Shown piece by piece: positions 5,365-42,076 of a stretch of 64,000 nucleotides of DNA. Where the stretch lies: positions 15,743-79,742 of the forward strand of contig NZ_WUUS01000004.1 of assembly GCF_009831625.1 (NCBI RefSeq), given 5' to 3'. The notes under the pieces were generated by a model. The model was not told the origin of the DNA. It was given only the letters and a program-made list of their open reading frames with translations, and searched no databases. The stretch is from Halobaculum saliterrae. GTDB lineage: Archaea > Halobacteriota > Halobacteria > Halobacteriales > Haloferacaceae. Both the position numbers and the translations under genes were made by a program. Position 1 is the stretch's first letter. Each line of letters begins with the position of its first letter.

Positions 5365-5439
5365 GGGTTGGTGGTCTAGTCCGGTTATGACGGCTCCTTC
5401 ACACGGAGCAGGCCGGCGGTTCGAATCCGCCCCAACCCA
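5365..5439 (+). tRNA. tRNA-Val (anticodon CAC)
   Basis: A complete cloverleaf. Acceptor GGGTTGG (5365-5371) pairs with CCAACCC (5432-5438), and A73 is the discriminator. Anticodon stem GCTCC/GGAGC encloses loop TTCACAC, giving anticodon CAC (valine, GUG codons). T-arm is GGCGG-TTCGAAT-CCGCC. No intron and no encoded CCA. A ccttaagcg element at about 5331-5339 is suitably placed as a TATA box. A degenerate copy of its 3' end lies about 115 bp downstream. Confidence 0.96.
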
Positions 5440-5505
5440 TTCCGTCGACACACCGACCACGAGCGACAGCGAGGAGTTCGGCTCGGCGGAACCGTCCTCG
5501 GGCGC

Positions 5506-5574
5506 GATTCGAAGCAGGGAACGAAGCGAGTGTCAGCGAGCGAAGCGACCGAGGTTCGAGTCCCCTTCAACCCA
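5506..5574 (+). repeat. tRNA-Val 3'-end pseudo-copy with inverted T-loop arm
   Basis: The stretch 5553-5574 (ggttcgagtccccttcaaccca) resembles the T-loop-to-A73 end of tRNA-Val; over the last 20 nt 16 positions match. It is preceded at 5506-5513 by GATTCGAA, the reverse complement of the T-loop of the true tRNA, and by a 41-nt spacer containing gaacgaagcgag and agcgagcgaagcgaccg. The same arrangement occurs beside tRNA-Met and tRNA-Arg. There is no intact cloverleaf, so this is not a second tRNA gene. Confidence 0.65.
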
Positions 5575-35550: not shown

Positions 35551-35624
35551 GCCGCGAGAACTGGGCCCAGAGGGATTCGAACCACGGTCGTTTCGCTCGC
35601 TTCACTCCCTGATTCGAATCCCTC
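35551..35624 (-). repeat. tRNA-Met 3'-end pseudo-copy with inverted T-arm
   Basis: 35551-35583 is an exact 33-bp copy of 35723-35755, the region that holds the 3' end of the tRNA-Met gene (T-loop to A73, 20 nt at 35562-35581 in this copy) plus 11 nt of its downstream flank. On the tRNA-sense (minus) strand the copy is preceded by GAGGGATTCGAA (35613-35624), which pairs perfectly over 12 bp with the TTCGAATCCCTC of the copy across a 31-nt spacer containing gtgaagcgagcgaaacgaccg. The spacer closely resembles the one beside tRNA-Val. Confidence 0.8.
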
Positions 35625-35722: not shown

Positions 35723-35755
35723 GCCGCGAGAACTGGGCCCAGAGGGATTCGAACC
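35723..35755 (-). repeat. 33-bp direct repeat overlapping the tRNA-Met 3' end
   Basis: This is the partner copy of 35551-35583, identical over 33 bp and 172 bp away. It includes the last 22 nt of the intact tRNA-Met gene and 11 nt of flank (minus-strand order: T-arm, acceptor, then ttctcgcggc). Duplication of a tRNA 3' end is the typical mark left by tyrosine integrases, although only 139 bp separate the copies. Confidence 0.85.
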
Positions 35756-35837
35756 CTCGACCGCCCGGTGTCCCATCCGGCGGCCGAAACCGGCCGGAGT
35801 ATGAGCCGGGTGCTATACCAGACTAAGCTATGGGCCC
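35734..35837 (-). tRNA. tRNA-Met (CAT), intron-containing, probably elongator
   Basis: The gene is 104 nt with a 74-nt mature tRNA. Acceptor GGGCCCA pairs with TGGGCCC, with A73. Anticodon stem CCCGG/CCGGG; anticodon CAT. A 30-nt intron lies after position 37. The exon-intron junctions form a canonical bulge-helix-bulge: central helix CTCA/TGGG, 5' bulge TAC cut after TA, 3' bulge ACA cut after AC, and inner helix TCCGG/CCGGA. Elongator tRNA-Met of haloarchaea is known to carry an intron here; tRNA-Ile2 (CAT, agmatidine-modified) is the alternative, and the initiator is excluded because the acceptor and anticodon stem differ. Confidence 0.92.
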
Positions 35838-41604: not shown

Positions 41605-41677
41605 GTCCGGGTAGGGTAGTGGACTATCCTCTTGGCTTGCGGAGCCAGGGACCGGAGTTCAAATCTCCGTCCGGACG
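41605..41677 (+). tRNA. tRNA-Arg (anticodon GCG)
   Basis: A cloverleaf of 73 nt: acceptor GTCCGGG (41605-41611) with TCCGGAC (one G-T pair) and discriminator G73; anticodon stem TTGGC/GCCAG with loop TTGCGGA, giving GCG (arginine, CGC codons); T-arm CGGAG-TTCAAAT-CTCCG. No intron. Its 3' end is part of a 97-bp repeat and is copied twice more within 360 bp downstream. Confidence 0.95.
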
Positions 41678-41761
41678 TTTTCAAGGCGCAACGACGACGA
41701 GCGAAGCGAGTCGTCCGTGCCGACTTCGAGTCTATATGTGGAGATTTGGGCAGCGAACGAG
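41665..41761 (+). repeat. 97-bp repeat, copy 1 (contains the tRNA-Arg 3' end)
   Basis: Starts with the 3'-terminal 13 nt of tRNA-Arg (ctccgtccggacg) and continues 84 bp downstream, including a gacgac-gagcgaagcgag-tcgtc hairpin and GGAGATTTG (41740-41748). It is colinear with 41934-42030 without gaps; 92 of 97 positions are identical. The two copies are 269 bp apart. Confidence 0.9.
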
Positions 41762-41830
41762 CGAGCGATAGCGAGCGAAGTGAGTGAGTTCAAATCTCCG
41801 TCCGGACGTTCCTTCACTCACTTCGTTCGT
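41740..41830 (+). repeat. tRNA-Arg 3'-end pseudo-copy with inverted T-arm
   Basis: 41786-41810 repeats exactly 25 bp of the tRNA-Arg T-arm/acceptor end. It is preceded by GGAGATTTG (41740-41748), a 9-bp exact reverse complement of CAAATCTCC (41791-41799), across a 42-nt spacer of gcgaacgagcgagcgatagcgagcgaag. On the other side, tcactcacttcg mirrors cgaagtgagtga, so the pseudo-copy is also bracketed by a 12-bp inverted repeat. Same architecture as at tRNA-Val and tRNA-Met. Confidence 0.82.
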
Positions 41831-41933
41831 TCAGTCACGACCGGCCGGTTCACGTTCGCTCGTTCACGGGTCGCTTCGCTCCCCGTTCACGGTCACGGTC
41901 TCACTGCGTTCGACCGCGCACCGCTCACGTGAA

Positions 41934-42030
41934 CTCCGTCCGGACGTTTTCAAGGCGCAACGACGACGAGCGAACCGAGTCGTCCGCGCCGACTTCGAGT
42001 CTATATGCGGAGATCTGGGCGGCGAACGAG
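41934..42030 (+). repeat. 97-bp repeat, copy 2 (upstream of the DUF309 gene)
   Basis: The second copy of 41665-41761, with 5 mismatches. It begins with the 13-nt tRNA-Arg end and ends 46 nt before the GTG at 42077, so it forms the upstream region of the DUF309 gene. Its reverse T-arm is degenerate (GGAGATCTG) and no tRNA end follows it. Confidence 0.9.
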
Positions 42031-42076
42031 CCGCCGCCACGGACAGACTGAAACGCCCGCCCGCCCGAGGTTCGTT

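Follow-up and report, generated by a model that had tools for sequence, protein, structure and literature searches.

The 3′ trailers of tRNA genes in Halobacteria carry a family of short repeat units, and this family is real, abundant and strictly tied to the tRNA genes of the class. In this study, units in a window of 64,000 nucleotides of Halobaculum saliterrae DNA (the whole stretch analysed) were compared with those of other genomes. We read the units as Halobacteria-wide small non-coding DNA modules that spread by an insertion duplicating the tRNA tail, a reading to which we give somewhat less than an even chance. The idea of a shared element family using the host tRNA 3′ end, put forward in the original prediction, is retained, and the integrase attachment scars offered with it as one possible explanation are not. 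A miniature mobile element, also among those explanations, is the leading, though unproven, reading of the units. The units may also be a source of small RNAs antisense to the T-arm, the remaining explanation offered there.

Architecture of the tRNA-Arg(GCG) locus and its relatives in the window

The gene for tRNA-Arg(GCG) occupies positions 41605-41677 (ARAGORN; Rfam RF00005), and its positions 53-73 (41657-41677) form the tail that is duplicated downstream; the gene and all features of this locus are given on the plus strand. Unit 1 begins with a trailer hairpin, H1 (GCGC..GACGACgagcgaagcgaGTCGTC.., 41685-41721, defined by folding). It continues with an inverted T-arm arm (41739-41751) that forms the 5′ side of the stem of a second hairpin, H2, and with a variable H2 tip of the GAGCGAGCGATAGCGAGCG type (41752-41787; folding and tip classes). 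The unit ends in a direct copy of tRNA-Arg positions 53-73, GTTCAAATCTCCGTCCGGACG (41788-41808; boundary statistics), the first half of which supplies the 3′ side of the H2 stem. The repetition of the tRNA 3′ end that had been noticed earlier was borne out, with an exact 25-nt copy at 41786-41810 and a truncated 13-nt copy at 41934-41946, and the duplicated block of 97/98 nt was recovered at 41665-41762 and 41934-42031 with 95% identity. The inverted pieces described with it were likewise present: GGAGATTTG, inside the arm at 41740-41748, is the exact reverse complement of CAAATCTCC at 41791-41799 across a spacer of 42 nt, and the bracketing arms cgaagtgagtga and tcactcacttcg lie at 41772-41787 and 41814-41829.

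Unit 1 is followed by a second module (41809-41933, TTCACTCACTTCG...) with a GAGCGAAG motif in the opposite strand polarity, which is common to the Arg loci of genomes G003, G005, G007, G008 and G010. Behind the truncated tail copy lies a partial second unit (41947-42031), identified through the 97-bp repeat, in which H1 is repeated, the inverted arm has decayed (GGAGATCTG, 42009-42017) and a tail copy is absent. H1 of unit 1 is swapped for other hairpins under the same plan in sibling genomes, and the Arg-GCG modules are reordered as mosaics among G000, G005, G007, G009 and G010. A GAGCGAAGCGAGC-type repeat with GCGNAGC mini-hairpins was also observed on the opposite strand at 41860-41926 of the window. 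This repeat is dispersed over intergenic regions throughout the genus; one sibling genome has a regular tandem array of it with 77-bp spacing (G008:C1:1995020-1995468).

The structure at the Arg locus exceeds chance. The sense strand of the H2 region (41736-41803) folded with z = -4.1, a value equalled by none of 200 shuffles, and the whole unit (41678-41808) formed two hairpins on the sense strand (z = -2.75; antisense, z = +1.1). Folding of the whole Arg unit with DNA parameters was no better than that of shuffles. A covariance model of H2, termed R1, matched the Arg hairpin at 41739-41800 (E 6e-6) and also matched the units beside tRNA-Met and tRNA-Val, where the original prediction had placed the same plan. 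Behind the intron-containing tRNA-Met(CAT) gene (35734-35837, minus strand), H2 lies at 35570-35624 (minus strand; 68.9 bits, E 7e-15), with an inverted arm at 35613-35624 and a tail copy at 35562-35582 on the same strand; this hairpin folded with z = -4.8 and was also better than shuffles with DNA parameters. Behind tRNA-Val(CAC) (5365-5439, plus strand), a decayed unit has its H2 at 5502-5566 (plus strand; 45.2 bits, E 5e-9) and its tail copy at 5554-5574 (plus strand), and the fold of this H2 by itself was no better than that of shuffles. Once these three units and the reverse-strand match at the Met unit are set aside, the best R1 match in the window has an E-value of 0.45. The Arg, Met and Val loci of the window are members of one family.

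Distribution and linkage to tRNA genes

Every tRNA gene of the own genome was surveyed with its surroundings. About 12 of the 43 chromosomal tRNA genes are followed, at a distance of 46-150 nt, by a second copy of their 3′ end, and the longest tail match upstream of tRNA genes was 9 nt. The common plan in this genome runs from the tRNA through H1, a GGGATTTGAA-like arm, (T/G)CAG and the tip to GGTTCRAATCC with the acceptor half of the same tRNA. A scan of 84,980 bacterial and archaeal species with a pattern of inverted arm and T-arm returned at least 120 stretches; among those listed, 119 came from haloarchaea spread over many families and genera, and the other was a chance match. Among 80 listed loci, approximately 75 sat 32-414 nt behind a tRNA with a matching tail, and the match was perfect in 50.

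Model R1 matched all 11 genomes of the genus (1-25 copies each) and 51 of 53 haloarchaeal genomes; elsewhere in the phylum, it matched none of approximately 242 genomes. G109 and G129 are among the few haloarchaeal genomes without units. When the CAG motif was dropped, a looser pattern matched 50 of 53 haloarchaeal genomes and 1 of 242 others, and its reversed control returned no match in any genome. This pattern also revealed further tip families on the same arm plan, of the ACGGCAGACC...GGTCTGGCATCGG and CCTGCCAGTCGCG...CTGGCTCCGG types (G295:C1:653056-653117, G221:C1:1382705-1382759 and G018:C1:1884039-1884099), and because such families escape model R1, the counts based on that model are lower bounds. 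Units are also present in Haloferax genomes. No earlier description of the units was found in the open-access literature.

The original prediction had set placement beside tRNA genes against placement at random sites. Of the 64 R1 matches in four genomes of the genus, 63 lay 20-425 nt behind a tRNA gene on the same strand (approximately 0.7% expected), and the 64th had been displaced by a 3.4-kb integrase element. With this concentration, and with bodies shared among tRNA species as described below, the family idea withstood the refuting condition set for it. The placement behind tRNA genes was the same at 58 of 60 additional loci (minus-strand loci reversed). Of the 187 tRNA genes checked in the genus, 49, about a quarter, bear units. 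Viruses were considered as carriers and rejected, as six of seven matches in IMG/VR look like chance (no tRNA, mostly low G+C); the seventh was a haloarchaeal contig. This contig, classified as viral, has tail-protein-like genes and, near its end, a complete tRNA-Glu with a unit (L196:13740-13920), and is probably a provirus plus host flank.

Anatomy of the units

The units follow the order H1, inverted T-arm arm (GGGATTYGAA type), variable tip and 21-nt copy of tRNA positions 53-73, and the arm and the tail copy together form H2. Unit bodies are 43-454 nt long (median 103). The tail copy is sharply bounded, with an identity of 0.93-1.0 at tRNA positions 53-73 and of 0.27 at position 51. The H2 stem has 12-15 bp with an invariant bulged G (77/77), a G-C pair and purine mismatches (GA/GA), and the tips fall into size classes, with total lengths of 46, 50, 58, 61, 67 and others. 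Pairing in the H2 alignment reached 91%, compared with 81% in shuffled and 24-50% in slid alignments, where the informative columns are T-stem positions 63-65 and the tip because the search pattern had fixed much of the stem. A reading of H2 as a k-turn was rejected, as its internal loop is unlike a simple k-turn, and so was a tRNase Z minihelix, as H2 has no acceptor stem. Comparison of the units with Rfam returned tRNA only, and a sub-threshold mascRNA match falls on the tRNA itself.

The sense strand outfolds the antisense strand in 73 of 75 units with RNA parameters and in 71 of 75 with DNA parameters; the asymmetry of G-U and A-C in the arm stem was too weak for a strand decision. Better folding of the sense strand and the placement of units on the tRNA strand would suit selection of the unit as RNA. 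Under this explanation, tRNA and unit would share one transcript, which tRNase Z would cleave at the 3′ end of the tRNA and possibly a second time at the copy. The product would be a stable, structured trailer RNA with a regulatory or protective role, and recombination would be incidental. Stable RNAs from pre-tRNA 3′ trailers have been reported in a haloarchaeon, Haloferax volcanii, where 10 of the 11 tRNA-derived fragments that one research group found came from such trailers (PMC3544259), and Haloferax genomes bear units. We nevertheless regard selection as RNA as unlikely. The H2 stem ends at the T-stem and offers tRNase Z no acceptor stem, and the presence of units is patchy among sibling species. 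In units with a mutated tail copy, the arm does not compensate and still fits the original tRNA sequence, by 30 to 6. The tips are, moreover, rich in RC-GNA-GY triloops (138 of 220, compared with 36 in shuffles), and GNA loops on G-C stems form an extraordinarily stable DNA mini-hairpin (PMC4686876). Such tips hint at a role as single-stranded DNA and do not prove it.

Match to the resident tRNA and sharing between tRNA genes

Sharing was analysed in 246 distinct units behind 33 tRNA types. An arm was present in 230 of the 246. This figure is inflated by selection, as part of the set was gathered with a pattern in which positions 52-62 and the initial bases of the arm were fixed; neither the own-genome set nor the test on T-stem bases 63-65 is affected. 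The complementarity of the arm to resident T-stem bases 63-65 exceeded all of 500 shuffles and fell to background in the acceptor stem, and the match at 63-65 was found again on 230 units. That the arm follows the tRNA even where the copy has mutated indicates that arm and copy were both made from the tRNA and decay later; the two do not coevolve tightly.

The bodies, as had been expected of a family, are shared among different tRNA species. For 136 of 222 units, the nearest body relative adjoins another tRNA. Among 166 cross-tRNA pairs of near-full length, the sites at which the two tRNAs differ agree with the resident tRNA by 1771 to 49 in the copy and by 327 to 92 in the inverted arm, counts in which related sequences enter repeatedly. 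A unit behind tRNA-Asp of Halorubrum salipaludis is 92% identical over 103 bp to a Ser-GGA unit of Hrr. trapanicum, the Trp and Ser-TGA units of Natronococcus jeotgali share 83% over 96 bp, and an Arg-CCG unit of Halorientalis shares 84% over 99 bp with a Ser-TGA unit of Natronococcus. Such near-identical bodies behind different tRNAs suggest that units are copied from tRNA gene to tRNA gene. In some cross-tRNA relatives, the tip or part of H1 alone is shared (G236 Lys/Leu; Asp/Ser-GGA).

Gain, loss and spread

Arrays comprise one to five units, some of them identical, such as the four identical 111-bp units behind Lys-TTT of G236. Precise empty sites were found in sibling genomes for Gly-CCC (84% over 157 bp), Val-TAC (91% over 144 bp), Ser-CGA (97% over 63 bp) and, for unit 1, Arg-GCG; these sites fit deletion as well as insertion. 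The distance of the first unit is kept per tRNA across species (62 nt for Arg-GCG, 20-21 nt for Leu-GAG). No fresh insertion was found for which the same genome had a near-identical donor, the best candidate reaching 81%. In G216 (L234:1241-1931), whole tRNA-Asp genes are tandemly duplicated with units in between.

We infer that the body is copied between tRNA genes via an insertion that would duplicate the 21-nt tail of the target, with one break where the T-stem meets the T-loop and the other at the mature 3′ end. Since the tail would be duplicated, the tRNA would be left intact at any target. The near-universal T-loop has its complement in the inverted arm, which may act as the guide; alternatively, the arm may fold with the T-loop and so present it to a putative recombination enzyme acting in trans. 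By way of the hairpin, the arm would later be corrected to match the resident tRNA, and recombination between the 21-nt tails would delete, multiply and reshuffle established units.

A reading without dedicated mobility starts from an ancient tail repeat at many tRNA genes that is duplicated and deleted through unequal crossing-over at the 21-nt tails and whose bodies are exchanged among tRNA loci and among species by ordinary homologous gene conversion. Tails would stay local because conversion ends within the body, and the arm would be corrected by template switching in the hairpin. Tips and H1 shared as mosaics with differing histories, tandem identical units, the conserved distance of the first unit and a copy that tracks the resident tRNA with almost no exceptions all agree with it. 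As the shared modules are sometimes the tip or H1 alone, some equally simple parts of the data fit conversion and unequal crossing-over of an ancient repeat, and sharing of this kind looks like module conversion, not whole-unit insertion. Near-full-length sharing across tRNAs and families, however, would need conversion through the arm and then rewriting of the arm, and the exact start at position 53 and the absence from non-haloarchaea are left unexplained. We consider this ancient-repeat account somewhat doubtful.

Returning to tail-duplicating insertion, a more specific proposal can be put forward tentatively, as possible: the units would be a new mobile module confined to Halobacteria that crosses anticodons by means of its T-loop-complementary arm, duplicates the 21-nt tail and rewrites the arm. 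If this proposal is true, one element could use every tRNA gene harmlessly. The units are relevant to why tRNA genes are hot spots for change in the genome. They are also a naturally occurring example of an element with ends fitted to the individual host site, and they may be where the unexplained trailer-derived RNAs of Haloferax come from. Their spread and function are directly testable because laboratory-tractable Haloferax species bear units.

Comparison with known systems

Attachment sites of tyrosine integrases (SNJ2, pNOB8 and SSV types; PMC8371274) likewise duplicate the tRNA 3′ end and keep the gene intact. The tRNA 3′ ends are classic sites of this kind, and the copies in the units have the length of a tail, so scars of tRNA-targeting integrases had to be weighed; we consider them very improbable. 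The units differ from such sites in being approximately 100 nt long and in having no integrase, a fixed 21-nt copy from position 53 and an inverted arm. Bodies of this size hold no integrase gene or remnant between the tails, and a single hairpin plan recurs at 33 tRNA types. The integrases of the own genome lie elsewhere: of nine PF00589 matches, one was seen beside a chromosomal tRNA, the unit-less Thr-GGT. A true element is present at tRNA-Gly(CCC) of G007 (L253:440-3990), where 3.4 kb with a PF00589 tyrosine integrase sit between the tRNA and a displaced, ordinary unit. Its attachment site is at least 46 nt long and spans the tRNA from the anticodon arm onwards, up to the 3′ end, and the entry of this element beside an old unit sets the units apart from integrase scars. 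As a separate observation, five tRNA genes lie within 3.6 kb beside an integrase on a small contig of the own genome (G000:C14:33851-39975, L060), probably a virus or plasmid with its own tRNAs, and contig C2 of G007 has a similar tRNA cluster.

Insertion of the casposon or CRISPR type at tRNA or leader ends produces a target-length duplication and leaves the target intact. The units share both features; no terminal inverted repeats were seen in them. Across the genus, PD-(D/E)XK endonuclease genes (PF11645) were observed immediately after tRNA-Pro(TGG) and tRNA-Asp, on the tRNA strand (G000:C6:67476-68240; G000:C9:44934-45323; siblings L263-L268; L233:1946-2443), and in G201 one lies between two full tRNA-Asp copies. 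This PDDEXK_5 endonuclease was considered as the driver of the units and set aside, since such a gene is lacking near most units and the control genomes, Haloferax volcanii included, do not have the family.

The attC sites of integrons have the arm consensus RYYYAAC / GTTRRRY. The units resemble them in the imperfect hairpin with its invariant bulged G and in the variable tip between the arms, and unit arrays resemble cassette arrays in growing behind a fixed anchor. An attC identity was rejected on the consensus, as most units have T or G after GATTYGAA and the fourth base of GTTCRAATC is C. In contrast to integrons, there is no integron integrase nearby and there are no cassette genes, and the copy in a unit is always that of the resident tRNA.

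The MITEs, PATEs and SMRs of Haloquadratum (PMC3119063) are, like the units, short, non-coding, palindrome-rich and variable among strains. Those elements are dispersed and target other mobile elements or have terminal repeats, whereas the units are bound to tRNA genes and have ends matched to the target. Terminal inverted repeats independent of the target, as in MITEs and SMRs, are absent, the only inverted repeat of the units being the one that matches the resident tRNA tail. Off-target insertions of the MITE or SMR type were absent among the 64 R1 matches, the single outlier having been displaced by the integrative element.

The closest plan is that of the RtT repeats, 178-bp units of the Escherichia coli tyrT operon that are known from one bacterial operon. 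Both are tandem repeats directly behind a tRNA gene, each with a copy of the tRNA 3′ end, and we class the units with tRNA-tail repeats of the RtT kind because they follow this plan. Unlike RtT, the units occur at many tRNA genes per genome, have an inverted arm matched to the resident tRNA and interchangeable hairpins, and extend over a whole archaeal class. There is a fair chance that they represent a new kind of mobile module.
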